Below, one piece after another: positions 1,444 to 26,919 of a DNA stretch of 28,370 nt (position 1 is the first letter of the stretch; the number at the start of each line of letters is the position of its first letter). The DNA is from a virus. Under the pieces are notes generated by a model. It ran no database searches. It saw nothing but the letters and a program-made list of their open reading frames with translations, and was not told where the DNA came from. Made by a program: the position numbers and the translations under genes. The DNA lies in the IMG/VR virus record IMGVR_UViG_3300042890_002789, positions 1 to 28,370 of that record; one strand, 5' to 3'.

Positions 1444-3107
1444 CTGCCAAGCAAAACGACTATGCAGTATTCCTGCCAGCCATCAGTGGATTCTATGCCA
1501 CGTTTGTAGGCAAACAACGTGTAGGACCTTATGTGGATCCTGCACGTATGCCTGTGGGTATTCAAGATATGGAACAGATGAATTGGCTCAACAGCCAACA
1601 GGCCTTGTTTCCATACCGCTGGAGTTTGTATTCCGGTGGACATGCTAACCTAGATCTTACCAAAACAGATCCAAGTGAAGATATGGTACGTGCAAGAGAA
1701 GCAGGCACACTGATGCTGGGCGACTCTGGAGGATTCCAGATCGCTAAAGGGCTGTGGCCAGGTGAATGGCGCGATCCTGGCAGCGCAGAAGTCAAACAAA
1801 AAATTGCCAACCTAACTGCACAAGGTACCAGCACCACTGTGACCGACAAAGGCAAAACTGTAACTGTAAATCCCTTAGCAGATTATTTGAAATTAATAGA
1901 TGCTGCTCAGAAAAAACGTGAAACTGTGCTGAAATGGCTAGATGGCATTTGTGATTATGGAATGACATTGGATATTCCAACTTGGGTGATTCACGATAAG
2001 AAAGCAGCCGCGGCATGTGGCATCAGCACACTGACCGAAGCTGTTGCGGCCACCAAGTTCAACAACGAATACTGGATGAAGAATCGCAAAGGTGTCAAAA
2101 ATGGTGGCATGAAGATTCTTAATGTATTGCAGGGCGCCAATCATGACGATGCTGAACGGTGGTATCAAGATATGAAACAGTATTGCGATCCTGCCATCTA
2201 CCCAGATACACATTTCAACGGTTGGAGCATGGGCGGACAGAACATGTGTGATGTGCATTTGGTACTGAAACGTTTGGTAGCTCTGCGTCACGATAACCTG
2301 TTGCAAGAAGGCGTTCATGATTGGATGCACTTCTTGGGCACAAGTAAACTTGAGTGGGCAGTGTTGCTCACAGACATTCAACGTGCAGTTCGCAAGTATG
2401 TTAACCCACGCTTTACTATCAGCTTTGATTGTGCAAGTCCGTTCCTGGCCACTGCCAATGGACAAGTGTATCATCATATTGATTTGCCACACAACGAAAA
2501 GTGGTGCTATAGAATGAGTCCTATTGTGGACGACAAGAAGTATTCCGCAGACACAAGACCATTTGGTCAAGCAGTCATTGCTGATGGCCTAATTGATCAC
2601 TTTGATGAATCGCCTATCAGTTTACAATTGCAAATGAAAGATGTTTGTATATACAAGCCAGGAGATCTAAACAAGATTGGCAAAGAAGGCAACACAAGTT
2701 GGGACAGTTTTAGCTATGCCTTGCTCATGGGACACAATGTATGGACACATATCGAAGCAGTGCAACGTGCCAATCGTGAATATGACAGCGGCAAGTGGCC
2801 GGCCATGATGTGGAATCGAGGAACCAAAGGTCGCACCGGTGACCATGCCATGTTCAAAGATATTGTGGATGCTATCTTTGCCACTGCTGACCGTGGTGAA
2901 GCTGAAGCTATAATTGAGCACTATGATCGGTACTGGATGGACATCATCGGCACTCGAGGATTCAAAGGTGACAAAGCCAAAAATCCTCACAGCCAATTTA
3001 ATAGGTTGTTTAGTTATGATGAAGATGAGGTTGACCAAGACCCCGATGATAGTGTACAATTAGATGCAACTGCACTTGATCAACTTGAACAGGAACAACG
3101 GCAATGA
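1425..3107 (+). CDS. dpdA: DpdA-like 7-deazaguanine DNA transglycosylase (TGT superfamily)
   Basis: Predicted to swap guanine in phage DNA for a 7-deazaguanine derivative, as phage DpdA proteins do. DpdA is related to tRNA-guanine transglycosylase (TGT). TGT landmarks are in order: GDSGGFQ at 99-105 with D100 (TGT TDSGGYQ), an acidic TLDIP at 181-185, NVLQG at 233-237 (TGT IVQG), NGWSMGG at 265-271 (TGT GGLAVG) and SFDCASP at 333-339. In the last of these, D335 matches the TGT nucleophile in FDCVLPTR. I see no CxCxxC...H zinc site of tRNA enzymes. The 560-aa length exceeds bacterial TGT (~375 aa), with an acidic tail at 534-560. The ATG at 1425 overlaps the upstream methyltransferase, and the stop overlaps the next gene by 4 bp. 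FolE, QueD and QueE elsewhere in the window supply the precursor pathway. Confidence 0.87.
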   Translation: MPQDNLTAKQNDYAVFLPAISGFYATFVGKQRVGPYVDPARMPVGIQDMEQMNWLNSQQALFPYRWSLYSGGHANLDLTKTDPSEDMVRAREAGTLMLGDSGGFQIAKGLWPGEWRDPGSAEVKQKIANLTAQGTSTTVTDKGKTVTVNPLADYLKLIDAAQKKRETVLKWLDGICDYGMTLDIPTWVIHDKKAAAACGISTLTEAVAATKFNNEYWMKNRKGVKNGGMKILNVLQGANHDDAERWYQDMKQYCDPAIYPDTHFNGWSMGGQNMCDVHLVLKRLVALRHDNLLQEGVHDWMHFLGTSKLEWAVLLTDIQRAVRKYVNPRFTISFDCASPFLATANGQVYHHIDLPHNEKWCYRMSPIVDDKKYSADTRPFGQAVIADGLIDHFDESPISLQLQMKDVCIYKPGDLNKIGKEGNTSWDSFSYALLMGHNVWTHIEAVQRANREYDSGKWPAMMWNRGTKGRTGDHAMFKDIVDAIFATADRGEAEAIIEHYDRYWMDIIGTRGFKGDKAKNPHSQFNRLFSYDEDEVDQDPDDSVQLDATALDQLEQEQRQ

Positions 3108-10713: not shown

Positions 10714-11313
10714 ATGAGCTTTGATAAAATACTAAAATTTGAACAATCGTTGTCTGAGTTTACCGGCGCACCTTATGCAATCATGACGGATTGTTGCACC
10801 CATGCAATTGAGCTATGCCTGCGCTATGACCAAGTCAAGGAGTGTGAGTTAACTCCCTACACTTATTTAAGTATTCCTATGACCATGCATAAACTGGGCA
10901 TCAACTACACTTATCAAGATCACGAATGGCAACGCTGGGTTGGTGAATATCCCATTGTGGGCACACGTATTTGGGACAGTGCTCGAAGGTTGCAACACAA
11001 CATGTATCGTCCCGGAACCATGCAATGTCTAAGTTTTGGACACGGAAAACCTTTACATATAGGCCGCGGTGGTGCTATACTGTTAGATGATGAAAAGGCT
11101 TATAACACTATTCTGCAACAAAGATATGACGGCAGAAACTTGACAGTTAGTCCCTGGGAAACCCAAAAGACTTTTAGAGTTGGCTATCATTACAAACCTA
11201 CTATCGAAGAAGCGGAACAGGGACTGGCTTCATTAGAAGTTCTAAAAGAGCTGCAACCAGAACCTAAATTTGTTGCTTATCCAGATTTGCGAAATATTGT
11301 CATAATACCTTAA
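10714..11313 (+). CDS. Short DegT/DnrJ/EryC1-like PLP-dependent protein
   Basis: Resembles the large domain of sugar aminotransferases of the DegT/StrS family. TGAPYAIMTDCCTHAIELCL (17-36) matches the GxxxAxxVxSGTxALxLAL substrate/PLP loop. WDSARRL (87-93) replaces the EDAAxA motif. SFGHGKPLHIGRGGAILLDD (107-126) is the SFxxxKxLxxGEGG motif with K112 as predicted Schiff-base lysine. At 199 aa it is about half the usual 370-400 aa and ends after the large domain, so the C-terminal small domain is missing. It ends with a normal stop and good spacing, so this is either a naturally minimal enzyme or a decayed remnant. Its neighbour at 11323 is an oxygenase-like gene, 9 bp downstream. Confidence 0.65.
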   Translation: MSFDKILKFEQSLSEFTGAPYAIMTDCCTHAIELCLRYDQVKECELTPYTYLSIPMTMHKLGINYTYQDHEWQRWVGEYPIVGTRIWDSARRLQHNMYRPGTMQCLSFGHGKPLHIGRGGAILLDDEKAYNTILQQRYDGRNLTVSPWETQKTFRVGYHYKPTIEEAEQGLASLEVLKELQPEPKFVAYPDLRNIVIIP

Positions 11314-11924: not shown

Positions 11925-12761
11925 TTGACAAAAGAATTCACACCAGATTCAGTATTCCATTCAGATACAGATAACAAATTTGTACCAGACAAATTCGAAC
12001 CTCTAGGTAAAGAGGTGTACGTTAAAACAGAAACAGGCCTAGATGCCATGGCCGGAGATGGCGGCTATGAAGAATCATACCTGGGCAATGCCATTCGCTT
12101 TAAAATGCAACGTGATAAAAAACGTTTCTGGGCAGGTGATAACATCAGCGATTATGTTAGCGAAGCCGACAAAGATGTCCTAATCAACGAAGCCGCAGAA
12201 GCATTTGAACTAGTGCTGGATCGATTGCTCATTGATCGCGAAACCGATCCCAACTCAAAAGGCACAGCCAAGCGATTGGCCAAAATGTATTTTAACGAAA
12301 TAATGGCAGGAAGATATGAACCAGCACCCGACGCAACAGCATTTCCAAACGACAGCGAAGACCGATACACCGGAATGCTTGTGGTACGTAGTGAGCTTCG
12401 CAGTATGTGCAGTCATCACCACCAACCTGTCAGTGGCGTTGCTTATATCGGGATTCTTGCCGCTCAAAAGCTCATTGGCCTTAGCAAGTACACTCGTATT
12501 GCTCAGTGGTGTGCTCGTCGTGGCACACTACAGGAAGAACTGTGTAACGACATTGCAAGAGAAATTGAAAAGGCCACAGGTGCAACAGACCTAGGTGTTT
12601 ATATTCAAGCAGTACATGGATGTTGCGAAAACCGCGGCATCATGGCACACAGCAGTTTGACTCAAACTACAGTGCTAAAAGGTGCATTTAATACTGATCA
12701 AAGTACCAAAAAAGAGTTCTTTGATAATATCAAACTGCAACAAGAGTTTGCACCTAGATAA
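11925..12761 (+). CDS. folE: GTP cyclohydrolase I
   Basis: Converts GTP to 7,8-dihydroneopterin triphosphate, the first step towards 7-deazaguanines (and folate). The core is unmistakable. GTAKRLAKMYFNEIMAG (~113-129) matches the TPxRVAKxY helix. MCSHHHQPVSGVAYIGI (161-177) is the CxHHxxPFxGxxxxGY zinc/substrate motif, with C162 and H165. LIGLSKYTRI is followed by VYIQAVHGCCENRGI (225-239), where C233 completes the zinc site. The 278-aa length includes an N-terminal extension of roughly 80 residues beyond the bacterial enzyme. The start is TTG at 11925: an in-frame TAA lies immediately upstream and GGAG (11913-11916) sits 8 bp before, while the first in-frame ATG is codon 42. With QueD, QueE and DpdA in the window, the deazaguanine route is the best interpretation. 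Confidence 0.93.
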   Translation: MTKEFTPDSVFHSDTDNKFVPDKFEPLGKEVYVKTETGLDAMAGDGGYEESYLGNAIRFKMQRDKKRFWAGDNISDYVSEADKDVLINEAAEAFELVLDRLLIDRETDPNSKGTAKRLAKMYFNEIMAGRYEPAPDATAFPNDSEDRYTGMLVVRSELRSMCSHHHQPVSGVAYIGILAAQKLIGLSKYTRIAQWCARRGTLQEELCNDIAREIEKATGATDLGVYIQAVHGCCENRGIMAHSSLTQTTVLKGAFNTDQSTKKEFFDNIKLQQEFAPR

Positions 12762-12800: not shown

Positions 12801-12825
12801 ATCATAACTTTAATTGGGAGATTCC

Positions 12826-14850
12826 GTGAAAAAACTCATATTGGCCACTGTGGTGCTACATTCTGCACTGTGCGCGGCTCAAACAACCACCGCTTACAAC
12901 AGTCCGTATCTAGGCACACCTAGTACAGTATTCAGCACTGATCCCAATGCTTGGTCTCTTTTGCCACAGGCAAAAAACAATAGCAATTTGCTTGTTGGTG
13001 CCAACTATGCCTGGAGCCGTGGATGGACTGGCAAGGGCAGTACCATATTGATCATGGACACAGGTATTGATCTCAAAAGTCCGCAGTTTAGTGCGCCTGG
13101 AAAAATTGTAGCCACACTGGACCTGTCTGGCAAAGGCATACAAGATCGCCATGGTCACGGATCAAATGTAGCAGGTATTGCAGCAGGAGCAATGACTGCC
13201 ACTGGTGTTATGGGAGTGGCATTTGATGCCAATTTGGCCATTGCCAAACTCAGTGACAATGCTAATGTAACCAGCGGCAATGCCATCCGTGCTCTGAAAT
13301 GGGCCAACACTGTGAATTCCAATATTGTGGTGGCCAATTTCAGTGCCAACACCGGTTATTCTTCTGCGTACACTGCCAGCGTGACCAAGATAGCACCCGG
13401 AATATACAAGAGCAGTGATAAAAATTACGGCGGAGCAGCCTATTATAATTTAGAATCACCGCAAGCATGGGCATCTGTACTAAGTCCTAAAATGGTGCTA
13501 ACAGTCAGTGCAGGCAACCAAGGACGGCCCTATGTACAAAACCCGGCCACATTTGCCAATGCTACCAACGCCAATGGCAGTCTAGTGCTGAATGGCCAGA
13601 TGCTGGTGGTGGGCAATTGGAATTCAGGATTACAGAAAGTCGAAGGAAACACTGCCGGAACTGTGTGTAAAAATGTTGTAGCAGATGTGTGCAAAGACTT
13701 GTACAAAACATCTGATTTTTACATTCTTGCACCAGGTTCAGCAGTCAATGGCCCGGTGCCCACTTCGGTGAGCAAAACCGGATATAAAACCCTGTCTGGC
13801 TCAAGTCAAGCTGCACCAGCAGTGGCAGGTGCAGTGGCAATTATTAGTCAGTTATGGCCCTACATGACTGCCAGCAATCAGGTGCAGTTGTTGTTAAAAA
13901 CTGCCAACAAAAATTTACCCAACTATGATCCAAATATCATGGGGCAAGGCCTGCTGGATCTGGATCGAGCTACAAAACCACTAGGTAACCTTGCAATTTC
14001 AATGACCGGACGCACTGGAACTACCATGCCGCTTGCAGGTGGTATTGCAGTGAGCAATGTGTCAACTGCCGCAGTTGCCAAATTGAGTTCGGTCAGTGTG
14101 GTAGACAGTATGCAACGTGATTTCACAGTGAATTTGGCACCAGCAGTCAGCGCCAACACTATGATGCAAAATCCCATAATGATCAATGCTGATCCTGGAT
14201 CAAACTGGAGTGGTAGATGGACTGGCCTAACTGCAGGGCAGAATTTGCAAATGCCTATTTTGGCAACGCAGTCCGGCACCGACAGCACAGTTACTGTGGA
14301 CAGTCGAATGTTTGAACCTGATGCAAAATGGGCCAATCAACTGACCTTGACAAATAGTCAATACAATCCTTTTGTGAACTTATCTGGCATGTTTGGTCAA
14401 ACTAATTCGGCAACCACTGTGGAATACAGTCGACTATATCGGGCAGGTGATAAAGAAGGACGTCATACACTGCCACAAGGTTGGTGGGCTCAAGGCGGTA
14501 TCATGACCACCGTGATCAATTATAACACTGCAATGGTAACCAACATAACACCAATTGTGGCAGTGCATGGCATGGCCGGCTACCAATTGAATGATTGGAA
14601 TTTGTTTGCTGGGGTCAAACCCGTAGTGGCACATGGCCAAGTTACTCTGACTGCTCCTTCCAGTGTGGATGCTGACGGAAATATGAACTACAGTGAAATT
14701 CAAAATAAATTAACTGGCAAAACACCAATTGCCTATGCAGGTATAAAATATCAGCACAATTTTAAAGATGGTCAAATTGTGGGCGTTAGATCTGCAGTTG
14801 CAACAGATGGTAGTCGCAACGTAAAAGCTTATTATTCCTGGGTGTTTTGA
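12826..14850 (+). CDS. Secreted subtilisin-like (S8) serine protease with outer-membrane-type C-terminus
   Basis: Predicted exported protease. With GTG at 12826 (GGGAG RBS at 12816-12820), the N-terminus MKKLILATVVLHSALCAAQ is a classic signal peptide cleaved near residue 19. A TTG at 12814 would start within the RBS and add an acidic tetrapeptide, so I reject it. The S8 triad is complete: D78 in ILIMDTGID, H111 in HGHGSNVAGIAAG and S327 in LSGSSQAAPAVAG, with oxyanion N231 in SAGNQG. After the catalytic domain (~60-395), a beta-rich region runs to residue 674. The last ~130 residues alternate polar and hydrophobic residues and end YYSWVF, an outer-membrane barrel-like terminus, so this resembles a short autotransporter. 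It has its own strong promoter. A secreted host-modifying protease on a phage is unusual. It might alter host surface proteins, act in lysis or be a lysogenic-conversion cargo. Confidence 0.87.
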   Translation: MKKLILATVVLHSALCAAQTTTAYNSPYLGTPSTVFSTDPNAWSLLPQAKNNSNLLVGANYAWSRGWTGKGSTILIMDTGIDLKSPQFSAPGKIVATLDLSGKGIQDRHGHGSNVAGIAAGAMTATGVMGVAFDANLAIAKLSDNANVTSGNAIRALKWANTVNSNIVVANFSANTGYSSAYTASVTKIAPGIYKSSDKNYGGAAYYNLESPQAWASVLSPKMVLTVSAGNQGRPYVQNPATFANATNANGSLVLNGQMLVVGNWNSGLQKVEGNTAGTVCKNVVADVCKDLYKTSDFYILAPGSAVNGPVPTSVSKTGYKTLSGSSQAAPAVAGAVAIISQLWPYMTASNQVQLLLKTANKNLPNYDPNIMGQGLLDLDRATKPLGNLAISMTGRTGTTMPLAGGIAVSNVSTAAVAKLSSVSVVDSMQRDFTVNLAPAVSANTMMQNPIMINADPGSNWSGRWTGLTAGQNLQMPILATQSGTDSTVTVDSRMFEPDAKWANQLTLTNSQYNPFVNLSGMFGQTNSATTVEYSRLYRAGDKEGRHTLPQGWWAQGGIMTTVINYNTAMVTNITPIVAVHGMAGYQLNDWNLFAGVKPVVAHGQVTLTAPSSVDADGNMNYSEIQNKLTGKTPIAYAGIKYQHNFKDGQIVGVRSAVATDGSRNVKAYYSWVF

Positions 14851-16324: not shown

Positions 16325-16876
16325 ATGCAATCATCAACACAACAACTAATCAACCACACGGAAGATAACTGGCCAACCACTAGACCAGTGGTTTACAAGT
16401 ATACAAGTACCAAAGAGTACCACGACGCATTTCCATGTGCGTATAGACAGTGGAGGGCAGACAGTCATTGTAATCTAATTCACGGCTATTCATTTAGTAT
16501 GAAGTTTTACTTTGGCACCAACGACCTAGATGTTCGCAACTGGGCGGCAGACTATGGTGGACTAAAAGAACTAAAGAAAACATTAGAAGATCAATTTGAT
16601 CACACACTCATTGTGGCCGCAGATGATCCAGAAATGGCCACATACAACCTGTTGGTAGAGAAAAAGATGGCCAAAGTAGTTGTGTTACCTCGTCTAGGTT
16701 GCGAAGGACTTAGCGACATGCTGTACAAATATGTCAATGGTGTGTACATTCCAGAAATGTGGGGGCCGGGCGAAGCGGCACGTTTGTGGTGCTATCGTGT
16801 AGAAGTGAGAGAAACTCAAAGCAATATGGCATATCGTGAAGGCCATCGTGAATGGAATGAGGATCTTTTTGCGTAA
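16325..16876 (+). CDS. queD: 6-carboxy-5,6,7,8-tetrahydropterin synthase-like protein
   Basis: Second enzyme of the deazaguanine pathway, converting dihydroneopterin triphosphate to 6-carboxytetrahydropterin. The T-fold pattern is clear. SHCNLIHGYSFSMKFYFG (47-64) corresponds to the C...HGHxY catalytic/zinc segment, with C49 and H53. ADYGGLKELKKTLEDQFDH (75-93) matches the DFxxLK...LDH region. GCEGLSDMLYKYV (125-137) holds the substrate glutamate E127, and YRVEVRETQSNMAYR (157-171) is the VxVxETxxxxAxY strand. By my alignment two of the three usual zinc histidines are tyrosine (Y40, Y55); H33 or H48 may compensate. At 183 aa it is longer than E. coli QueD (~120) but similar to phage forms I recall. 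It has its own promoter and AGGAG RBS. Confidence 0.88.
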   Translation: MQSSTQQLINHTEDNWPTTRPVVYKYTSTKEYHDAFPCAYRQWRADSHCNLIHGYSFSMKFYFGTNDLDVRNWAADYGGLKELKKTLEDQFDHTLIVAADDPEMATYNLLVEKKMAKVVVLPRLGCEGLSDMLYKYVNGVYIPEMWGPGEAARLWCYRVEVRETQSNMAYREGHREWNEDLFA

Positions 16877-16985: not shown

Positions 16986-17819
16986 ATGAACAATCACGAA
17001 TATAAAATTTCAATATTATTGCCTACACGCGGCAGAGGTGATGCACTAGAACGAAGTGTAAAAAGCTTGTTTGAGTTGGCCACCGATCCAGGCGCCATAC
17101 AACTTATGTTGGGCTTTGACAATGACGATACCGACGGTATTTCTGCTTTTGAAAAATCATTGCAACCTTGGTTAGACTCACAAGATATTAATTATATTGC
17201 TATGACGTTTGATCCAATGGGATACACTAGACTCAATGAATATGTTAATACTCTTGCATTAAACTCTGATTCCGACTGGATGATTTTTTGGAATGATGAT
17301 GCGTACATGGAAACACCCGGATGGGACACAGTTATTTCTAAACACACCGGCGAATTTAAATTGTTAGCGTTTCATACTCATAATGATCACCCTTACAGCA
17401 TATTTCCAATTGTTCCCAGAGAGTGGTTAGATACGCTAGGGTACCTAAGTCCACATGGGTTAAATGATGCTTGGTTGAGCCAACAAGCATTTATGCTAGA
17501 CATATGGGAGCGCATACCAGTACATGTAGTACATGACCGACACGATCTTACCGGTAACAATCACGACGATACTTACAAAAACCGGGTGATGTTTGAAGGA
17601 AACCCAAAAGATCCCAGAGATTTTCATCATATGACTTGGTCCAATTTTCGTATGAGTGAAACTGAAAGATTATCAATCTGGATGGCCAAACAAGGCATGG
17701 ATGTTTCTTGGTGGGAAAAGGTCAAATCGGGCAATCAAGATCCCTGGGAAAAACTACGTGACAATGATCCTAACGGTCAAATGAAGCAATATAAAATGTC
17801 TAACGGAATTAGATTATGA
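16986..17819 (+). CDS. GT-A fold (GT2-like) glycosyltransferase
   Basis: Likely nucleotide-sugar-dependent glycosyltransferase. ISILLPTRGRGDALERSVKS (8-27) is the family-2 N-terminal strand with its PTRxR turn. FWNDDAYME (101-109) supplies the DxD-like metal and donor site (D104/D105). RHDLTGNNHDDT (~190-201) may contribute acceptor or metal residues. There is no membrane anchor; length 277 aa. It opens the sugar island and overlaps the following SDR gene by 4 bp. Confidence 0.72.
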   Translation: MNNHEYKISILLPTRGRGDALERSVKSLFELATDPGAIQLMLGFDNDDTDGISAFEKSLQPWLDSQDINYIAMTFDPMGYTRLNEYVNTLALNSDSDWMIFWNDDAYMETPGWDTVISKHTGEFKLLAFHTHNDHPYSIFPIVPREWLDTLGYLSPHGLNDAWLSQQAFMLDIWERIPVHVVHDRHDLTGNNHDDTYKNRVMFEGNPKDPRDFHHMTWSNFRMSETERLSIWMAKQGMDVSWWEKVKSGNQDPWEKLRDNDPNGQMKQYKMSNGIRL

Positions 17820-18766
17820 AAAAAATTGTATATGTCACAGGCTGTTTGGGATTCATTGGGGTGAATGTCACCCGTCAATGCCTAGCACGTGGCTGGCATG
17901 TGATTGGTGTGGACAAAGGTACCTATGCTAGCAATTTTAATTTTTTAACTGAGTTTCAAAAATACGATACATTTAAATTCATACACAAAGATATCAACGA
18001 TCTTGATCGACTGTATGACTGCGACTATATCATAAACACAGCGGCTGAGACTCATGTGGATAATTCAATCATGAGCTCAGAGGTATTTCTAAGTAGCAAC
18101 ATTAATGGAGTACATCGGCTGTTAGAATTGATACGACAACAGCCTGTCCAAAAGCAACCAATATTGTTGCATTTTTCAACCGACGAGGTCTATGGTGACA
18201 TTGATTCAGGAGCCCACACCGAAACTGATTTGTTAAAACCTAGCAATCCTTATTCGGCATCCAAGGCTGCCGCCGACATGTTGATACTGGCCTGGGCAAG
18301 AACTTATGGTATTAAATATGTAATTGTGCGTCCTACCAACAACTATGGCATTGGTCAATACGTTGAAAAACTTATACCCAAAAGCGTTAAATTTCTTGAA
18401 TTAGGCAAATTAATTGATTTGCACAATCACGGTAATCCGGTACGGACCTGGTTGCATGCCACGGATACTGCTAGTGCTGTAATAGCTACCATTGATGCTG
18501 GATGTACTAATGAAATATTTAATATCAGTGGCAATACTGAAATGCCAAATCGAGAAGTGATAAAAAAAATATTATCTTATTATTATGGAGTTAATCATGA
18601 TCACGACTGGGAATCTTTTGTTACTCCCAGTTCTAGACAAGGGCAAGACGTGAGGTATGCTATCGATGATAGTAAACTAAAACAACTGGGCTGGACTGCA
18701 ACTGCTGATTTTGATCAAGAATTGGCCCAGGTAGTCAACCACTACAGAAATAATTTCGTATGGTAA
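17816..18766 (+). CDS. NDP-sugar 4,6-dehydratase-like extended SDR (RmlB family)
   Basis: Probably converts an NDP-hexose to the 4-keto-6-deoxy sugar. TGCLGFIG (8-15) binds NAD. HFSTDEVYGD (119-128) holds the T-D-E catalytic triplet characteristic of dTDP-glucose 4,6-dehydratases, and Y146-SAS-K150 is the YxxxK pair. RPTNNYGIGQYVEKLIPK (~171-188) and VRTWLHATDTA are the standard RmlB substrate segments. At 316 aa it is slightly short. The nucleotide (dTDP, CDP, GDP) cannot be told from sequence. It fits upstream of the E1-like 3-dehydratase at 19485. The stop overlaps the next gene by 7 bp. Confidence 0.82.
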   Translation: MKKIVYVTGCLGFIGVNVTRQCLARGWHVIGVDKGTYASNFNFLTEFQKYDTFKFIHKDINDLDRLYDCDYIINTAAETHVDNSIMSSEVFLSSNINGVHRLLELIRQQPVQKQPILLHFSTDEVYGDIDSGAHTETDLLKPSNPYSASKAAADMLILAWARTYGIKYVIVRPTNNYGIGQYVEKLIPKSVKFLELGKLIDLHNHGNPVRTWLHATDTASAVIATIDAGCTNEIFNISGNTEMPNREVIKKILSYYYGVNHDHDWESFVTPSSRQGQDVRYAIDDSKLKQLGWTATADFDQELAQVVNHYRNNFVW

Positions 18767-19488
18767 AGAATTATTTGGTATGTGCAGTTCGCCCCATATC
18801 GGACAATTGGATGGGCAATGATAGTTCACAATTGTATTTAGACTATCAAGAAATGTATCGTCTAAGACTGGCCAGCTTTCAACACTTTGTAAAAGAACCA
18901 TTTGAAACAATATTGTGGACGGATCCGGCTACCAACGGCGATACCTGTGCATATCAAAATTGGCTTGACATTAAAGAATTATGGCAGCGTGAACCTTGCA
19001 ACGTATTCTGGGCTGGTGCCGACACACTTATGATTCGACCTACAGAATTGTTTTCAGATAGATTTACTGAATATCGATTGTTCAATTATACTGATCCAAA
19101 AAGTCATGGAGATTTTGCACACCATTTCAATGACGACATACAATATTATCCACACACCATGTCACCCAATGTATGGAAACTGGGTGAAGAGTGGTTGACT
19201 CAAAGAGAAACTCACCCAAATCGTAATTGGGGGTTTGACCAGCTAAGACACAATGCCATGTTCTGGAGTCAAGATATCTTAGACTCTGACAGACTACATC
19301 CAGAGATGGCCTATCAAGCAATAAAATTAAGATCCTTGTCTGACCAACTTATGATAGACATTCATAATGAGTGGAACGGTATAGATATAAATCAAGCACA
19401 CATGCTACATTTTCATGGTAGCCGTGGAAGTCAATCAGTGATAACCATCATGAAAGAAATTTGCAGTCAACTTGGAATTAAATTATGA
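18760..19488 (+). CDS. Hypothetical GT-A-like glycosyltransferase
   Basis: Weakly recognised. The 242-aa protein starts YLVCAVRPI and has NVFWAGADTLMIRPTELFSD (81-100), similar in style to the strand-DxD-helix donor site of GT8- and GT32-like enzymes (a GAD triplet replaces DxD). The C-terminal HMLHFHGSRGSQ is also glycosyltransferase-like. It lies inside a run of overlapping sugar genes (7 bp with the gene before, 4 bp with the gene after). I infer a transferase role but could not assign a family. Confidence 0.5.
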   Translation: MVKNYLVCAVRPISDNWMGNDSSQLYLDYQEMYRLRLASFQHFVKEPFETILWTDPATNGDTCAYQNWLDIKELWQREPCNVFWAGADTLMIRPTELFSDRFTEYRLFNYTDPKSHGDFAHHFNDDIQYYPHTMSPNVWKLGEEWLTQRETHPNRNWGFDQLRHNAMFWSQDILDSDRLHPEMAYQAIKLRSLSDQLMIDIHNEWNGIDINQAHMLHFHGSRGSQSVITIMKEICSQLGIKL

Positions 19489-20804
19489 AACAGATATTGG
19501 AAGACATTAAAAAATACATTGATTCTAAACATGCAGACAAGACCTGGGTAGCTGGCCGAGACTTTGTCAACTATGCGGGTCCGTATTTTGACTCAGACGA
19601 ATATGTAGCTGCCGCAGAAGCTTTGCTTAACGGCTGGCTAGTAATGGGTAATAAAAGTCTAGCATTTGAACGCCAGTTTCCTGAACAGTTTGGCAAGACT
19701 CGCGGAGTGCTGACCAATTCAGGTAGTAGTGCCAACCTGCTGATGATGACAGCAATGAAGAGCAAACGTGGCTATAACTTTCCGCAAGGCACCAAGGTGT
19801 TAATGCCCATTGCTGGATTTCCTACTACTTTAAATCCAACTATTCAAAACGGATTTACACCTGTGTTTTGCGATATTGAAATTGACACCTTGAACATTGA
19901 TCTGGCTCCAGCTGAACAAATACTTGCCAACGATCCCGACATACGAATCATTACATTTGCACATGTGTTAGGCAATCCTCCCAACATGGATCAAGTGATG
20001 GAACTGGTCAATCGACACAATCTTGTGCTATTGGAAGACTGTTGCGATGGTCTGGGCACAACATACAAAGGTCAACCTTTGGGCAGTTTCGGCCTAATGG
20101 CATCATGCAGTTTTTATCCAGCACATCACATGACCATGGGCGAAGGTGGCTTTGTGGCCATGAACGACTCTCAACAAGAAGTCATTGTGCGTTCGTTGCG
20201 TGAGTGGGGTCGAGGATGCTACTGCGTTGGGCCCGATGCCAACAAGTTAAAATGTGGTACCTGTGGCAAACGTTTCAACGAGTGGATTCCTGAAATGCCC
20301 GGAGAAATATTTGATCACAAGTATGTGTATGACGAGATTGGTTACAATCTAAAACCCATTGAACTACAAGCGGCCATGGGGCTTGAACAGATTAAAAAAC
20401 TGCCCGAGATACACGCTCTACGTCAGCGCAACTACAATCTGTTGTTTGCCATCTATGAAAAGTACGAAGAGTTTTTTCACTTGCCACGTGCTAGAGAACA
20501 TGCAGATGTGAGTTGGTTTGCCTTTCCTCTTACCATTAGAGCAGGCGCACCGTTTACACGCAACGACATTGTGGACTACTTGGAAGAACGTTTAATCCAA
20601 ACCCGTCCATACTTTGCTGGCAACATCATGCTACAGCCTGCTTACAGCCACTTGATGAATCCTGCAGATGCACGTGACAACTACCCTGTGGCCACACTCA
20701 CAATGAAGAACACATTCTTCCACGGTTGCAGTCCGGTTATTACTCCAGAACAGATTGAGTACATTGGTGAGCAGGTAGACGGCTTTATGAGTTTATTCAA
20801 ATGA
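19485..20804 (+). CDS. rfbH: E1-type NDP-6-deoxy-4-ketohexose 3-dehydratase (PMP, 2Fe-2S)
   Basis: Predicted to remove the C3 hydroxyl of an NDP-4-keto-6-deoxy sugar on the way to 3,6-dideoxyhexoses. The DegT fold is clear: TNSGSSANLLMM (77-88), LEDCCDGLGTTY (183-194) and SFYPAHHMTMGEGGFV (209-224). The decisive feature is His in place of the Schiff-base lysine (H214), the mark of the E1/RfbH/AscC group, which uses PMP without a covalent link. C187 followed by C245-Y-C247 and then C257/C260 (CGTCGKRF) supplies the 2Fe-2S ligands. The gap from C187 to C245 is 57 residues, as I recall for Yersinia E1. At 439 aa it is full length for the group. It overlaps the split ThDP enzyme genes downstream by 4 bp. 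Confidence 0.87.
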   Translation: MKQILEDIKKYIDSKHADKTWVAGRDFVNYAGPYFDSDEYVAAAEALLNGWLVMGNKSLAFERQFPEQFGKTRGVLTNSGSSANLLMMTAMKSKRGYNFPQGTKVLMPIAGFPTTLNPTIQNGFTPVFCDIEIDTLNIDLAPAEQILANDPDIRIITFAHVLGNPPNMDQVMELVNRHNLVLLEDCCDGLGTTYKGQPLGSFGLMASCSFYPAHHMTMGEGGFVAMNDSQQEVIVRSLREWGRGCYCVGPDANKLKCGTCGKRFNEWIPEMPGEIFDHKYVYDEIGYNLKPIELQAAMGLEQIKKLPEIHALRQRNYNLLFAIYEKYEEFFHLPRAREHADVSWFAFPLTIRAGAPFTRNDIVDYLEERLIQTRPYFAGNIMLQPAYSHLMNPADARDNYPVATLTMKNTFFHGCSPVITPEQIEYIGEQVDGFMSLFK

Positions 20805-21829
20805 ACCGCTTAGAAAACAAAATGAGAGTGTGTGATTGGATCGCCGACTACTTGAAGTCAATTGGCGTTGAACGTGTGCACGGATTAATGGGTGGTGGTG
20901 CCAGCGGACTCAATGACGGATTCATCAAACAAGGCATGCCCTACATCTGCTATCACCACGAGCAAGGTGCAGGACATGCAGCCACAGCCGAAAGCAAGTT
21001 CTCTGGCAAACTTGCGGTAGTCAATCCTACAACAGGTTGCGCAGGTACCAACTGTGCAACATCGGTTTTAAATGCATGGCAAGACAGTGTACCTGTTTTG
21101 TTTCTGTCAGGCAATGTTAGATTGGCAACCTGTAGCGGATACATCAACAAAAAGAACAACATCAATGTTCGTAAGTATGGCATTCAAGAACACCATGTTG
21201 TTGACACCTACAAGACCATGACCAAATTGAGTTGCTTTGTTGACAATGTACAAGACGTAGCATACACAATACAATATGCAGTACACTTGGCAACAACAGG
21301 ACGTCCTGGTCCTGTATGGATTGATATTCCGGGTGACATTCAAACGGCACAGATGCCTGAGAATTACAGAGAATATGTTGCCACCGCCTTGGTCGATACA
21401 CTGTCAGACTACGATGGTGTAAAACAAGCTATTGCCAAAGCAGAACGGCCCGTTGTGTTGGCAGGATACGGTATTCGTCAAAGCAATACTGTTGACCAGT
21501 TTGTTAAATTTATTGAACAATATCAAATTCCATATGTCAGCACCTATGGTGCAAGAGATTATACTACTGCCAGCCATCCTCTAAGCATTGGAGCAGTTGG
21601 CATCAAAGGAAGTCGCGCTGGAAACTTTGCTATGCAAAATGCTGATTTACTTATTGTGTTGGGCAGTAGTTTAGGCGCCAGTGTTATTGGTTATGACCCT
21701 AAACAGTTTAGTCCAGACAGTTATAAGATTGTTGTCGACCTCGATATCAACGAGTTAAAGAAAGACATTGTTGAAGTTGATGAAAAATACAATGTTGATT
21801 TAGAAAAGTTTTTTAGGAGTTTGGCATGA
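20801..21829 (+). CDS. ThDP-dependent carboligase, N-terminal half (AHAS/YerE-like PYR + central domains)
   Basis: First half of an acetohydroxyacid-synthase-like enzyme. CYHHEQGAGHAATAESKFSG (~50-69) is the PYR-domain helix, with the glutamate (~E53) that activates the ThDP aminopyrimidine. PTTGCAGTNCATSVLNAW and GRPGPVWIDIPGDIQ are standard AHAS-superfamily segments. The central domain runs from ~200 to 325 (PVVLAGYGIR...ADLLIVLGSSLG). At 342 aa it ends exactly where the linker to the PP domain would begin, and the PP domain is encoded by the next gene. Neighbouring E1 and SDR genes make a YerE-like role, adding a two-carbon unit from pyruvate to a keto-sugar, an attractive inference. A valine-type acetolactate synthase is less likely here. 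The start could also be ATG 20822. Confidence 0.85.
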   Translation: MNRLENKMRVCDWIADYLKSIGVERVHGLMGGGASGLNDGFIKQGMPYICYHHEQGAGHAATAESKFSGKLAVVNPTTGCAGTNCATSVLNAWQDSVPVLFLSGNVRLATCSGYINKKNNINVRKYGIQEHHVVDTYKTMTKLSCFVDNVQDVAYTIQYAVHLATTGRPGPVWIDIPGDIQTAQMPENYREYVATALVDTLSDYDGVKQAIAKAERPVVLAGYGIRQSNTVDQFVKFIEQYQIPYVSTYGARDYTTASHPLSIGAVGIKGSRAGNFAMQNADLLIVLGSSLGASVIGYDPKQFSPDSYKIVVDLDINELKKDIVEVDEKYNVDLEKFFRSLA

Positions 21830-22569
21830 CAAGACAAGAATGGATTGAAAAATGCAATCACTGGAAATCCAAATGGCCGGTAATGCAGGAAGAATATCGT
21901 CCAGCTGAAAATGATTTTCAGTTAAACATCTATGCCATACTTGATGCGATTAATCAGCACAGTTTAGCCAATGACATTTTAATGGGCGATGCTGGCAGCA
22001 TTAGCTATGCAGGTCCTGTTGCATTAAATGCCAAACACGGACAAAGATTTATTTTTAGTCCTGCACAAGCAGATATGGGGTGGGCGTTACCTGCAGCCAT
22101 TGGTGTAAGTATGGCCAGTAATCAACAGGTCATCAGTATCATCGGCGATGGTAGTTTTATGAGTAACATTCAAGAATTAGCCACAGTTAAACAACACGAG
22201 TTGAATATCAAGTTTGTTATTCTCAATAACAACGGTTACCTAAGTATTAAAAATACACAGACAAAATACTTTGAAGGAAGGGTGCATGGAACCAGTGCTG
22301 AAAGTGGCCTGTGGTTTCCTAGCTTTAAAAATATTGCGGTAGCATTTGGCATGCCTTGTGTGGATATCAGAACAAAAGAAGATCTGCGTCTTCATTTCCC
22401 CAATGCCCTTAACAAAAAAGGTCCAGTCATTATAGACTGCCAATGTCTTGGCCAGCAAGAAATATTACCAGCCCAAGCATTAAAAAATGGAAAGCAAGCA
22501 GGCCTACACGATCTAACACCATTCCTGCCAGATGAAGAACTAGCACAGGAAATGATTGTTAAAATATAA
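21826..22569 (+). CDS. ThDP-dependent carboligase, C-terminal half (PP domain)
   Basis: Second half of the split AHAS-like enzyme, binding the ThDP diphosphate and Mg2+. GDGSFMSNIQELATVKQH...FVILNNNGY (~106-138) is the canonical GDG-x(~25)-NN ThDP motif. DMGWALPAAIGVSMAS (~84-99) and GPVIIDC (~203-209) are further PP-domain landmarks. The ATG overlaps the previous TGA by 4 bp, with a strong AGGAG at 21815-21819. The two halves are therefore separate, translationally coupled polypeptides rather than a simple sequencing frameshift. Residues 1-35 (RQEWIEKCNHWKSKWP) correspond to the interdomain linker of the single-chain enzyme. Confidence 0.87.
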   Translation: MTRQEWIEKCNHWKSKWPVMQEEYRPAENDFQLNIYAILDAINQHSLANDILMGDAGSISYAGPVALNAKHGQRFIFSPAQADMGWALPAAIGVSMASNQQVISIIGDGSFMSNIQELATVKQHELNIKFVILNNNGYLSIKNTQTKYFEGRVHGTSAESGLWFPSFKNIAVAFGMPCVDIRTKEDLRLHFPNALNKKGPVIIDCQCLGQQEILPAQALKNGKQAGLHDLTPFLPDEELAQEMIVKI

Positions 22570-22575
22570 AATACC

Positions 22576-23259
22576 ATGCCAAATTCCTTATACCAAAATA
22601 TTCCAGGTCTAGAAAACTCAATTGAATTCAGAGACAATTCGCCCTACGACGAATTAAAAAATCTGTGGTGGCCTCGGTACGATCGGGGCATGTGGAATTA
22701 CATGCATCAGTTTCGAATACTCCCAGAATTTTTTGATCAACTAATGACACATGTCACTGGCAATGCTATTGTAGTGCAAGCCGGCGGCAACTGTGGGCAG
22801 TATGTAAGACAGTTCAGTCAACGATTTAATACTGTATACACATTTGAACCAGATCCAATAAATTTTTTGTGTTTGACTTTGAATTGCGGTGACAATGTAA
22901 TAAAAACACAGGCCTGTGTAGGCAATGAAAGAAAATTTGTAAATCTAGACAGAAGGCACGATTCAGGCGCTATTCATGTAAGCGGTACGGGTAATATACC
23001 CACAGTGATCATTGATGAACTAAATTTACCAGCCTGTGATTTGATACAATTAGACATTGAAGGCTATGAACTTTTTGCGTTGCAAGGCGCACAACGTACT
23101 ATTGAAAAATATCATCCTCTACTTATGATAGAATGGTACGAGCCCTGGGCCCAAAGATACGGCACAAATAAAACCATGCTTGACAATTTTTTAAACAGTG
23201 TAGGATACAGTAAAATTTTAAGTCACAAATCTGATATCGTTTACAAATATCAACCATGA
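22576..23259 (+). CDS. FkbM-family SAM-dependent methyltransferase
   Basis: Likely O-methyltransferase, perhaps acting on a sugar hydroxyl. VVQAGGNCGQYVRQFS (66-81) is the FkbM version of the SAM-binding loop (VxDvGAnxGxY). TFEPDPINFLCL (89-100) holds the acidic ribose-binding residue E91. DLIQLDIEGYELFALQGA (~155-172) is the LKIDVEGxExxVLxGA FkbM signature. The product is 227 aa. Placed after the ThDP enzyme and overlapping the next SDR gene by 4 bp, it may cap or decorate the sugar made by this island. Confidence 0.82.
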   Translation: MPNSLYQNIPGLENSIEFRDNSPYDELKNLWWPRYDRGMWNYMHQFRILPEFFDQLMTHVTGNAIVVQAGGNCGQYVRQFSQRFNTVYTFEPDPINFLCLTLNCGDNVIKTQACVGNERKFVNLDRRHDSGAIHVSGTGNIPTVIIDELNLPACDLIQLDIEGYELFALQGAQRTIEKYHPLLMIEWYEPWAQRYGTNKTMLDNFLNSVGYSKILSHKSDIVYKYQP

Positions 23260-24194
23260 AAACAGCACTGATTACCGGAGCCAATGGATTCATTGGTCAC
23301 TACTTGGTAGAAGAATTTTTAAAAGATCACCGTGTGATCTGTGTGGTACGACCTGGCTCAACCAATATGGAACGGATCAATCACATGCTGGATCGTGTTA
23401 CTGTAATCGAGCACGACATTAAAAATTCTTGTAAACACTTGCCAGCGGCAGATATTATATTACATGCTGGCGCCAATCCTAGTTCGGCTGACAGCTTGAG
23501 TGATCCCACAGCATCTGTCATGGACAATGTGCTGGGCACACTGAACTTGTTGGAACATGCTAGACACACAGGCGTTGAAAGATTTGTGTATTACAGCAGT
23601 GCCGAAGTATTTGGACCTATACCCATTGGTCAAGACAGTCAGCCCAACGATGCCTACAACAGTAATAGTCCCTATGCGGCTGGCAAAGCAGCCGGTGAAG
23701 AACTGTGCATGGCCTATGCCAATTCATTCAATGTCCCTGCAAGTATCATACACATCAACAATACCTTTGGTCCACGCTGCCAGAGCAATCGTTTGCCCGT
23801 GATCATCATACGCAAATTACTCAATAATGAAACTTTAGACATACATGTGGGGCCCGATGAGTTGATTGGTGGACGTCGTTGGTTTTATGCTGGAGATGTT
23901 GCTGGTCATACTCGATTTATATTAAAGATGCAATCCGCTCGTTGTGAAAAATGGAACAGTGCCGGTGATAGGTTTATCAACAATCTTGAGTTTGCCCAAC
24001 ACATTGCTCAAATAATGGACTGTGAATTATCTTATCGGTTAGTTCCAGTTGATCGCCCCGGGCATGACTTGTGTTTTAGTGTTGATCCTAGAAAATTATA
24101 TGAACTAGGATGGCATGCGTCCGACTCCTATGAAGAACGATTAACCGAAACCGTCAATTGGTATAATAACAATCCTGAATGGCTTGTACGATAA
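23256..24194 (+). CDS. NAD(P)-dependent extended SDR, NDP-sugar epimerase/reductase
   Basis: Nucleotide-sugar-modifying SDR. TGANGFIGHY (7-16) is the dinucleotide-binding loop, SSAEVFG (114-120) and Y140-AAG-K144 form the catalytic set, and NNTFGPRC (~167-174) and GGRRWFYAGDVA (~205-216) are typical substrate-binding segments. At 312 aa it is full length for the family. The family includes dehydratases, epimerases and 4-ketoreductases. In this island a reductase for the branched or dideoxy keto-sugar (YerF-like step) is a plausible but unproven assignment. It is the last gene before a strong promoter. Confidence 0.77.
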   Translation: MKTALITGANGFIGHYLVEEFLKDHRVICVVRPGSTNMERINHMLDRVTVIEHDIKNSCKHLPAADIILHAGANPSSADSLSDPTASVMDNVLGTLNLLEHARHTGVERFVYYSSAEVFGPIPIGQDSQPNDAYNSNSPYAAGKAAGEELCMAYANSFNVPASIIHINNTFGPRCQSNRLPVIIIRKLLNNETLDIHVGPDELIGGRRWFYAGDVAGHTRFILKMQSARCEKWNSAGDRFINNLEFAQHIAQIMDCELSYRLVPVDRPGHDLCFSVDPRKLYELGWHASDSYEERLTETVNWYNNNPEWLVR

Positions 24195-24228: not shown

Positions 24229-24309
24229 ATGAAGAAAATCTATTACTCTTGCCAAGATGGCAACACACAATATTCTTTTAAAAGTATTCCAATCAAGGTC
24301 ATATTATGA
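24229..24309 (+). CDS. Possible 26-aa leader peptide upstream of queE
   Basis: ATG at 24229 opens a 26-codon frame (MKKIYYSCQDGN...SIPIKVIL) whose TGA overlaps the queE ATG by 4 bp, a layout suited to translational coupling. The predicted transcription start falls at or next to its first base, so it would be translated as a leaderless or almost leaderless message. No Shine-Dalgarno is present in the transcript. The function is unknown; it may be a regulatory leader peptide or simply a chance frame in the 5' leader. Confidence 0.35.
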   Translation: MKKIYYSCQDGNTQYSFKSIPIKVIL

Positions 24310-25160
24310 AAATAAAAGTAAGCGAACTATTTTACAGTTTACAAGGCGAAGGTCGTTTTGTAGGTGTTCCAAGTGTGTTTTTGAGAACATTTGGGTGTAA
24401 CTTTACCTGTGCAGGGTTTGGTTGTGCACCAGGAAAAAAATCCTCAGGCGCAGATGAAATTGCCCAAGTGGTGCATTTATACAATCGCTTTGAAGATTTA
24501 CCATTGGTAGAAACAGGATGCGATAGTTATGCGTCATGGCATCCAGATTTTAAACATCTGAGCCCAAGTTATACCACAAATCAAATTGTGGATCAAATGA
24601 CTGCACTAACACCAAATAAACAATGGACACAGAAAAATGGCAACGATGTTCATCTGGTTATCACTGGTGGAGAACCACTGTTAGGATGGCAACGAGCATA
24701 TGGCGAATTATTGGATCATCCCAAAATGGCAGATCTTCGGAACATCACTTTTGAAACAAATGGCACCCAACCTTTACAAAAAGAATTTAAAGATTATCTT
24801 GGTCACTGGCGTACCGAGAACAAAGAAATTACATTCAGTGTCAGTGCCAAACTTTCAGCCAGCGGCGAGAGTTGGGAAGACGCTATCAAGCCAGATGTTG
24901 TGGCCAACTATCAAGAAGTTGGTACTGTTTATCTTAAATTTGTTGTGGAAACAGACACACACATTGAAGAAGCTGTCAAAGCAACACAAGAATTCAGAGC
25001 AGCTGGTTTCAACGGTGTGGTTTATCTAATGCCCCAAGGTGGTGTTGTTGAACCGTACAATAAAAACCGACAACGAATAGCTGATATTTGTTGTGAACAG
25101 GGCTGGAACTACAGCCCTAGATTACATGTAGACTTATGGGGTAACGGATGGGGCAAGTAA
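24306..25160 (+). CDS. queE: 7-carboxy-7-deazaguanine synthase-like radical SAM enzyme
   Basis: Third enzyme of the deazaguanine pathway, rearranging 6-carboxytetrahydropterin to 7-carboxy-7-deazaguanine (CDG). SELFYSLQGEGRFVGVPSVF (6-25) is the QueE N-terminal signature. LRTFGCNFTC (26-35) begins the cluster motif, TGGEPLLGWQ (~119-128) is the GGEP motif, and ITFETNGTQPL and FSVSAKLSASGE are family segments. The cysteines are C31, C35 and C40, giving CxxxCxxxxC rather than the normal CxxxCxxC; C72 (TGCDSYASW) is another possible ligand. At 284 aa it is longer than E. coli QueE (~223). It overlaps the nadE-like gene by 13 bp. Confidence 0.9.
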   Translation: MKIKVSELFYSLQGEGRFVGVPSVFLRTFGCNFTCAGFGCAPGKKSSGADEIAQVVHLYNRFEDLPLVETGCDSYASWHPDFKHLSPSYTTNQIVDQMTALTPNKQWTQKNGNDVHLVITGGEPLLGWQRAYGELLDHPKMADLRNITFETNGTQPLQKEFKDYLGHWRTENKEITFSVSAKLSASGESWEDAIKPDVVANYQEVGTVYLKFVVETDTHIEEAVKATQEFRAAGFNGVVYLMPQGGVVEPYNKNRQRIADICCEQGWNYSPRLHVDLWGNGWGK

Positions 25161-25900
25161 AAAATCAAATTGTACACTGGATCAAAGAATATGCCGAAAC
25201 AGCCGGTATGAAAAGTTTGGTAGTAGGCATATCGGGCGGTATTGATTCAGCAGTGGTCAGTGCGTTGTGTGCTAGCACTGGTATTCATACAGTGGCAGTT
25301 TCTATGCCCATTAGGCAACGACCTGAACTGCATGATTTAAGTATGCGGCAAGGTGCTTGGTTGGCCCAAAACTTTGATAATGTGCGTCATGAAATTATCA
25401 ATTTGACCGCGGTGTTTGATGAATTTGAAACACGTATGAATACCTACAACAATGTGTTGGGATTTGCCAACAGTCGTAGTCGATTGCGCATGGTCACGCT
25501 GTATCAAATTGCACAAAGCACACAGGGATTGGTGGTAGGCACAGGAAACAAAGTTGAAGACTTTGGTGTTGGATTTTATACCAAATACGGCGATGGTGGT
25601 GTAGACATCAGTCCCATTGGGGATTTATATAAATCTGAAGTATGGGCATTGGGTCGAGAATTGGGTATCATTGAAGATATTATCAACGCAGCGCCCACAG
25701 ATGGATTATGGGACGATGGTCGGACCGACGAGGATCAACTGGGCGGATTGACCTACAAAGATTTAGAACTTGCAATGCAACAAGACCAAGGCGAAGTGTT
25801 GGTAAAAGGCAGTACAGAATTACACAATTTACAGACTTATCAGGCCATACGTGCAAAAAGTCTACACAAGATGAATCCAATTCCTGTATTTAAAAAATGA
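25148..25900 (+). CDS. nadE: NAD synthetase-like ammonia-dependent amidating enzyme
   Basis: By sequence a standard NadE: an ATP-pyrophosphatase that adenylates a carboxylate and amidates it with ammonia, canonically nicotinate adenine dinucleotide to NAD+. SGGIDS (29-34) is the PP-loop. NSRSRLRM (~108-115) matches the NExARxRM dimer/substrate helix. VVGTGNKVEDFGVGF (129-143), YTKYGDGGVDISP (144-156) and PTDGLWDDGRTDEDQLG are NadE-specific. The glutaminase domain is absent (250 aa). It starts inside queE and its stop overlaps the amidinotransferase start by 4 bp. Because the canonical CDG-amidating enzyme QueC is missing from the window, a role amidating CDG is worth considering; NAD+ supply is the default. 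Confidence 0.85.
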   Translation: MGQVKNQIVHWIKEYAETAGMKSLVVGISGGIDSAVVSALCASTGIHTVAVSMPIRQRPELHDLSMRQGAWLAQNFDNVRHEIINLTAVFDEFETRMNTYNNVLGFANSRSRLRMVTLYQIAQSTQGLVVGTGNKVEDFGVGFYTKYGDGGVDISPIGDLYKSEVWALGRELGIIEDIINAAPTDGLWDDGRTDEDQLGGLTYKDLELAMQQDQGEVLVKGSTELHNLQTYQAIRAKSLHKMNPIPVFKK

Positions 25901-26919
25901 TCAATTCAAATTTTGGCTTTACTCCATTGAAGGAAGTATGGTTAGGAGATTGCTATCCTGCTGGCTGGTACGATCATTTGCCAAATGAAATTGCTGATCC
26001 ATTTAGACAAATAACAGAATGGACCAAACAAGACACTGGAAAATTACAAAAATTTTTAGAGGATAAAGGAGTAGTAGTTAAGCGTCCGGTATTTGATTCA
26101 ATTGATAGCTATCTTGATAACAATGATAATTTAGTAAAACCTCCTATATGTCCTAGAGATCACTATTTGGTGCTTGATAAAACATTATATAGTCTGCATA
26201 ATAAATTAGAAAAAGATCCATGGCAGCACATTATGGATGAATACAAGAATTTAGGATACGATGTGCAACCATCAACGCAACAACAGCCAATAAATTACAT
26301 TAACCCACCATCGTTGGTTCGTATGGGGCAGGATTTGTACTTAGACATTCACACTCATTCGGATGTCTGGAGGGATTCATGCGAATGGATGGTTAATACC
26401 GCTAGAAATTACCGTGTTAATATTTCTGAGACCTACGGGCACAGTGATGCAGTATTTTGTCCAGTGGCGCCCGGTGTGTTAGTATCAAGTCATTACAAAA
26501 CAAATTATGATCAAAGTTTTCCAGGATGGGAGGTATTTCAAATTCCTAAAAATTTAAATAATGCCACTTTTGACATGCAACAATGGAACACATCAAGCGA
26601 TACTATTAACAACAATAAATCGTTTGCTAATCATGTGCTAACTCTTGCTAGTGATTGGGTAGGTGATTTTAGAGAAACAGTATTTGAAGTTAACATGTTA
26701 GTATTAGATGAAAAAAATGTTGTTGCAATGAAAGAATATCCTCCATTGATAAAATGGTTACAAGATAAAGGTATTACAGTACATCATTTTGATCTGCGTA
26801 CCAGGAGTTTTTGGGATGGTGGGTGGCACTGCTTAACTTTGGACATACACCGTGAAGACACTCAATTTGATTTATTTCCAGAACGTGGCAAAAATGGAGT
26901 TTATTGGCGACAACAATGA
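25897..26919 (+). CDS. Amidinotransferase-superfamily protein (AGAT/StrB-like)
   Basis: Predicted guanidino-modifying enzyme that takes the amidino group of arginine to an amine acceptor, or a hydrolase of the same fold. LKEVWLGD (11-18) matches the family opening strand. PPICPRDHY (82-90) resembles the MxPRD segment with D88. ETYGHSDAVFCPVAPGVLV (178-196) aligns with HLDxxFxPLxPG of AGAT and gives H182 and D184. GGWHCLTLDIHRE (308-320) is the catalytic-cysteine segment (GGxxHCxTxDIRR) with C312. The 340-aa length suits StrB and AGAT. It is AT-rich compared with nadE. Operon position after queE-nadE suggests a modified deazaguanine, while the nearby sugar island suggests guanidino-sugar formation as in streptomycin biosynthesis. 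The acceptor cannot be decided from sequence. Confidence 0.8.
   Translation: MINSNFGFTPLKEVWLGDCYPAGWYDHLPNEIADPFRQITEWTKQDTGKLQKFLEDKGVVVKRPVFDSIDSYLDNNDNLVKPPICPRDHYLVLDKTLYSLHNKLEKDPWQHIMDEYKNLGYDVQPSTQQQPINYINPPSLVRMGQDLYLDIHTHSDVWRDSCEWMVNTARNYRVNISETYGHSDAVFCPVAPGVLVSSHYKTNYDQSFPGWEVFQIPKNLNNATFDMQQWNTSSDTINNNKSFANHVLTLASDWVGDFRETVFEVNMLVLDEKNVVAMKEYPPLIKWLQDKGITVHHFDLRTRSFWDGGWHCLTLDIHREDTQFDLFPERGKNGVYWRQQ

Follow-up and report, generated by a model that had tools for sequence, protein, structure and literature searches.

Branched dideoxy sugars are known from bacterial lipopolysaccharides (LPS) and from antibiotics. Three groups of enzymes dependent on thiamine diphosphate (ThDP) that branch keto-sugars are distinguished in a 2025 review: the YerE-like enzymes, alpha-KADH2 and the split transketolases, the last having been proposed only, and only for Streptomycetes (PMC12247030). 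JanthE, a YerE-like ketone ligase of Janthinobacterium (PMC12188165, PMC12247030), is a single chain of 619 residues (PDB 8rph). The stretch of DNA analysed here, referred to as the window, is a virus record of 28,370 bases from IMG/VR (IMGVR_UViG_3300042890_002789). Eight plus-strand genes lie almost end to end at 16986–24194, and this cassette is likely to be an operon with which the phage makes an activated C4-branched 3,6-dideoxyhexose (Table 1).

The yersiniose A pathway of Yersinia pseudotuberculosis (E1/E3, YerE, YerF) shares with the cassette a 4,6-dehydratase, the 3-dehydratase E1 with its histidine and [2Fe-2S] cysteines, a ThDP carboligase and a short-chain dehydrogenase/reductase (SDR), and in both the acceptor of the branch would be a 3,6-dideoxy-4-keto sugar. 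The phage cassette differs in lacking an RfbF-like nucleotidyltransferase and E3, in having a thymidine diphosphate (dTDP)-type RmlB in place of the cytidine diphosphate (CDP)-glucose dehydratase, in dividing the ThDP enzyme between two genes, and in the linked glycosyltransferase and FkbM genes. JanthE, the best solved relative of the concatenated window enzyme, differs in being unsplit, and the window enzyme belongs to another YerE-like lineage. The same E1 family and the same E1-(aminotransferase)-ThDP order are found in bacterial clusters arranged RfbF-RfbG-E1-aminotransferase-YerE-like-SDR (for example L163, L164 and L196), and this clade supplies some of the nearest bacterial ThDP relatives of the window enzyme. 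Unlike the window, these clusters have an unsplit ThDP gene and an aminotransferase, and L163 has a CDP-type dehydratase (TIGR02622, 499.8 bits) together with a glucose-1-phosphate cytidylyltransferase.

The coupled gene run starts at 16986 with a GT2-like gene, upstream of the RmlB-type gene. Six of its seven junctions overlap by 4–7 nt and the remaining one is a 6-nt gap, in agreement with an earlier reading of this DNA (the original prediction), which had described a run of mostly overlapping genes. The RmlB-type protein scores 295.6 bits against the dTDP-type model TIGR01181 and 68.5 against the CDP-type model TIGR02622, and all 122 phage RmlB copies checked retain the STDEVYG motif, which contains the Asp-Glu dehydration pair, together with YxxxK. 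Because the dTDP profile far exceeds the CDP model and the active-site motifs are kept, we infer that the cassette sugar is probably dTDP-linked; the CDP type, which the original prediction had also entertained, is the one used in the Yersinia-like bacterial cluster L163. E1 scores above the curated cut-off of the RfbH model NF011936 (432.9 against 423 bits), and its best solved relative is the Yersinia E1 (3bcx, E 3.9e-95). The previously noted histidine, which replaces the lysine that binds pyridoxal phosphate, and the four cysteines aligned to Yersinia C193, C251, C253 and C261, which from the E1 literature we take to be the ligands of the [2Fe-2S] cluster, are invariant in 146 of 146 phage E1s; compared with the Yersinia spacing C-X57-C-X-C-X7-C, the window E1 has five extra residues ahead of the last cysteine. 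In the second SDR (SDR2), the Asp of the dehydratase pair is missing (SSAEVFG for STDEVYG) while YxxxK is retained, and since that Asp is absent SDR2 is more likely a reductase or epimerase, probably a ketoreductase or an epimerase. The FkbM protein likely O-methylates the sugar. Pfam and NCBIfam profiles thus recover every gene named in the original prediction (a 4,6-dehydratase-like SDR, E1, a two-gene ThDP enzyme, FkbM and a second SDR), which had overlooked the GT-A-fold glycosyltransferase encoded between RmlB and E1.

The two ThDP genes are divided between domains, the first carrying PF02776 and PF00205 and the second PF02775. When concatenated, the subunits match JanthE at 306 bits, compared with 204 for acetohydroxyacid synthase (AHAS)-I and 199 for 5ahk, which we take to be PpYerE. 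A 107-row tree places AHAS and Gcl outside the YerE-like enzymes (SH-aLRT 99), and a tree constrained to unite the split enzymes with AHAS is worse by 131 log-likelihood units (approximately unbiased (AU) test, p = 0.00018), so the likeness to YerE drawn in the original prediction withstands the phylogenetic comparison with acetolactate synthases, which that prediction had itself named as a test. The split phage enzymes cluster with a small number of unsplit ones, also from phages, and the bacterial enzymes near this group frequently have E1 and an aminotransferase linked to them; the bacterial rows were retrieved with a phage-derived profile, which limits what the tree can say about the nearest bacterial source. 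Bacterial relatives are 35–42% identical, some of them in clusters of the RfbF-RfbG-E1-aminotransferase-ThDP-SDR type, and 54 of 80 YerE-like bacterial loci have an E1 nearby. The catalytic Glu is present in 102 of 102 phage ThDP enzymes and the GDG/GEG/CDG...NN motif in 101, the window enzyme having both. On these grounds the two-gene enzyme is predicted to be a YerE-like keto-sugar carboligase. Two unsplit phage YerE-like enzymes (L129, L135) form the sister group of JanthE and share its unusual CDG ThDP motif.

The strongest evidence for branching comes from the slot after E1. Scans of viral contigs gave at least 80 ThDP loci and at least 80 E1 loci; the slot census used only the E1-seeded loci, which are unbiased as to ThDP, reduced to 52 non-redundant loci, each with more than 2.5 kb of downstream sequence. 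A ThDP module was present in 46 of the 52, adjacent to E1 in 44 and within 8 kb in two more. The gene after E1 was transketolase-like in 17 loci, like the E1 component of pyruvate dehydrogenase (PDH-E1-like) in 10, YerE-like in 17 and a short SDR in four, with nothing recognised in two. Ten of the YerE-like slots are close to the window enzyme (six of these with a class I/II aminotransferase) and seven belong to other lineages. Pfam backs the transketolase, E1_dh and aminotransferase calls, and the PDH-beta-like partner has no Pfam match of its own. The converse search found E1 directly upstream of the transketolase-like seeds in 29 of 32 eligible loci. PDH-like seeds, whose matches include a distantly related mini-PDH family on other phage contigs, had no E1 nearby in 54 of 71 loci, so a PDH-like gene alone is not diagnostic of the cassette. 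Chance co-occurrence of the cassette genes is ruled out by the profile scores and the near-identical gene order on many independent contigs, and is also rejected by the E1-seeded and transketolase-seeded locus counts.

The RmlB-E1 core is nearly constant among related phages, and it is the slot that varies. E1s that are 97–98% identical carry different ThDP classes, and an E1 tree of 70 rows shows 26 changes of class; many branches of that tree are weak, and about five changes in each main class, of which there are three, are forced by the starred branches alone. Since the three classes competing for this position are the same three reviewed as keto-sugar branching enzymes, the slot is best explained as the branching step, and the swapping of classes after a fixed core means that the branch itself would vary between phages. 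The phage transketolase-like and PDH-E1-like pairs are the counterparts of the split transketolases and alpha-KADH2 of antibiotic branched-sugar pathways. The known ones are found in secondary-metabolite clusters, the transketolases only in Streptomycetes, whereas the phage proteins occupy the slot after a viral E1 and are small (about 200 + 180 residues). Taken with the E1 identity and the ThDP phylogeny, the three-class slot supports the proposal of the original prediction that the phage makes a rare branched sugar resembling yersiniose.

This pattern suggests that closely related phages diversify a sugar coat, their own or the host's, by swapping the branch enzyme. A broader model, which we advance tentatively and give somewhat less than an even chance, is that aquatic T4-like phages practise a plug-in form of glycan diversification, in which a fixed 3,6-dideoxy-4-keto core is followed by a ThDP slot filled from three superfamilies, and near-identical phages would show differently branched sugars on the virion or the host surface, in a manner like antigenic variation. 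Two other arrangements were seen in the scans. The mini-PDH family (L310:5637-8615, also L303-L347) consists of three consecutive genes, one with a transketolase-pyrimidine domain, one for a radical SAM protein and one of the E1_dh-alpha type; a GT2-domain gene lies upstream of them and E1 is missing. This may possibly be another phage system for sugar branching or C-C ligation. The E1 neighbourhood L112:8214-11771 contains a HAD-like protein, a 373-residue protein that looks by eye like the sialic-acid-synthase type, and a YerE-like enzyme that is unsplit and clusters with relatives from Rhodocyclaceae.

In the proposed pathway, RmlB would convert a host nucleotide-linked glucose, probably dTDP-glucose, to the 4-keto-6-deoxy sugar, and E1, with electrons from a host reductase, would strip the 3-hydroxyl to give the 3,6-dideoxy-4-keto sugar. 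The split YerE-like enzyme would then decarboxylate a 2-oxo acid and attach the acyl unit at C4, so that a branched tertiary alcohol results. For the late steps, whose order we infer, SDR2 would reduce or epimerise the product, FkbM may methylate it, and the GT-A-fold enzyme, perhaps together with the GT2-like one, would transfer it. Related phages would keep the first two steps and use a YerE-like, transketolase-like or PDH-E1-like enzyme for the third, or a short-chain reductase instead. Many phages, and 20 of the 80 bacterial loci, have an aspartate-aminotransferase-like gene along with the ThDP gene, often directly between E1 and the ThDP gene. Its product may provide the 2-oxo acid used as donor; longer hydroxylated 2-oxo acids are favoured by the YerE-like enzyme ErwE (PMC12247030). 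Many related phages keep this gene and the window cassette lacks it, so the donor there would be pyruvate or an acid supplied by the host.

As the original prediction had noted, the cassette contains no E3 or sugar nucleotidyltransferase. The NTP_transferase domain PF00483 was found in two of 18 related phage records only, both times weakly, and the E3 domains PF00175 and PF00111 in none of 17 related contigs, nor among the window proteins scanned; these records extend up to 337 kb and may be incomplete. With both functions absent, the host must supply the precursor and the electrons.

Several points weigh against a branched-sugar operon. The pathway depends on the host in the way just described, the RmlB-type score is below the equivalog cut-off of TIGR01181 (365.1 bits), the ThDP enzyme is only ~40% identical to bacterial relatives that were themselves gathered with a phage-derived profile, and its split form is known from sequence alone. 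The alternative that the product is an unbranched 3,6-dideoxyhexose of the abequose or paratose type, with the ThDP enzyme acting elsewhere, for example on an acyl substituent, draws on the four of 52 E1 loci where a short-chain reductase replaces the ThDP module, which implies that some phages can use the E1 product unbranched. We regard it as improbable for the window, where the cassette has no short-SDR-type reductase and the ThDP genes directly follow or overlap E1, as they do in most relatives, and because the slot holds each of the three ThDP classes for which action on keto-sugars is known or has been proposed. Least probable, at a few chances in a hundred or so, is that the ThDP pair is an acetolactate synthase feeding branched-chain amino acid synthesis and present by chance, as its AHAS-like NCBIfam and Pfam labels, the names given to such phage genes by annotation pipelines, and a phage survey whose table places ilvB, as a branched-chain amino acid/pantothenate gene, alongside rfbG/rfbE-type ones (PMC8226683) might suggest: its AHAS equivalog scores are far under the cut-offs (about 110–182 against 538–1084 bits), JanthE is its closest match, E1 linkage is seen in bacteria and phages, the same slot is elsewhere taken by transketolase-like or PDH-like pairs and not by acetolactate synthases, and with the tree and the AU test this identity is rejected.

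The protein encoded at 18760–19488 has no Pfam, NCBIfam or PHROG match, and its model has a GT-A fold that Foldseek relates to glycogenin, GT8 and GT6 (E about 1e-6 to 1e-5) and also to the capsid glycosyltransferase 2p73 of PBCV-1 (4e-5), making it a candidate for transfer of the finished sugar. A soluble enzyme of this type could have virion proteins as its acceptors, or else host glycans that are still being assembled. We rate a virion protein, which remains a tentative choice, slightly above the host surface. Precedents for glycosylation of phage virion proteins are indicated in PMC12619734, which cites Freeman et al., and the branch is swapped often, which is consistent with selection acting on a glycan that is exposed. 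Addition of the sugar to host LPS or capsule during infection, blocking superinfection, has perhaps one chance in three: a superinfection block has been proposed for cyanophage sugar clusters (PMC7824862) and bacterial YerE-like pathways lead to LPS O-antigens (PMC12247030), but this route would need host machinery, as no polyprenyl-phosphate sugar transferase (PF02397) or flippase (PF01943) was found in the 17 related phage contigs, which argues against de novo O-antigen assembly. Some destination other than virion protein, host surface or DNA is unlikely. Decoration of modified bases in the phage DNA, one of the destinations suggested in the original prediction, is very unlikely. Phage DNA glycosyltransferases with diverse glycans are a precedent (Pyle et al. 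2024, cited in PMC12619734), and FolE, QueD and QueE in the window point to deazaguanine chemistry; against this, the thymidylate synthase/deoxycytidylate hydroxymethylase family PF00303 is absent from the 17 contigs, which argues against hydroxymethyl-pyrimidine glycosylation and leaves that modification unsupported, and the glycosyltransferase fold resembles those of glycogenin, GT8, GT6 and a viral capsid enzyme.

No report of a phage branched-sugar pathway was found in the literature searched, which took in few subscription papers and preprints. The biochemistry itself is of an established type; as far as that literature shows, what is new is its occurrence in a phage, the front end of the dTDP type, the division of the YerE-like enzyme into two genes and, most of all, a ThDP slot whose occupants are interchangeable. 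If the proposed function is correct, viruses run and diversify a complex sugar chemistry of their own, and they offer a large source of candidate ketone-accepting ThDP ligases, among which would be transketolases that branch keto-sugars, the first from beyond Streptomycetes. Annotations of phage genes as ilvB, transketolase, pyruvate dehydrogenase or aspartate aminotransferase may then conceal a role in sugar biosynthesis and not in central metabolism. The swap pattern also makes the purpose of phage sugar clusters directly testable, by comparing phages that are almost identical except for the ThDP slot.

Table 1. Genes of the cassette and other annotated genes of the window (PMP, pyridoxamine phosphate; NDP, nucleoside diphosphate).
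Feature	Position in window	Strand	Evidence and remarks
GT2-like glycosyltransferase	16986..17819	+	phrog_14945 glycosyltransferase, 9.6e-15; weak PF00535; 4-nt overlap with next gene
RmlB-type NDP-glucose 4,6-dehydratase (step 1)	17816..18766	+	Pfam 1.5e-53; TIGR01181 295.6 bits
GT-A-fold glycosyltransferase, 242 residues	18760..19488	+	AlphaFold2 model, pLDDT 93.4; Foldseek
E1/RfbH-type PMP- and [2Fe-2S]-dependent 3-dehydratase (step 2)	19485..20804	+	NF011936; 3bcx
YerE-like ThDP carboligase subunit 1 (PYR and central TH3 domain)	20801..21829	+	PF02776, PF00205; catalytic Glu (HHEQ)
YerE-like ThDP carboligase subunit 2 (PP domain)	21826..22569	+	PF02775 6.4e-35; GDG...NN ThDP/Mg motif
FkbM-family methyltransferase	22576..23259	+	PF05050 1.9e-12; TIGR01444 above cut-off
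Extended SDR (SDR2)	23256..24194	+	PF01370; YxxxK kept, SSAEVFG instead of STDEVYG
560-residue protein	1425-3107		DSGGFQ motif by eye; no Pfam/PHROG match
199-residue DegT/DnrJ-family protein	10714-11313		Partial domain match; conserved in relatives
FolE-like	11925-12761
Subtilase	12814-14850		Signal-like N terminus
QueD-like	16325-16876
QueE-like	24306-25160
NAD synthase	25148-25900
Unassigned 340-residue protein	25897-26919

Carriers of the cassette are large aquatic bacterial viruses. A T4-type major capsid protein was found in seven of 17 related phage records, and the clamp encoded in the window is closest to clamps of large phages; no structural genes were recognised in the window itself. 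The FolE-, QueD- and QueE-like genes and the DSGGFQ protein suggest preQ0/deazaguanine modification of DNA or tRNA in the same phage. In cultured phages, the ThDP matches are distant and mostly resemble bacterial acetolactate synthases or host-derived contigs, and cyanophages S-B05 and S-H68 have an E1 (about 41%) near which no ThDP module was detected. The E1-family sugar clusters of S-B05 and S-CAM7 (L241 and L243), in which no ThDP module was detected, adjoin tail-fibre or endosialidase genes. The NAD synthase gene recurs in syntenic relatives of the window.

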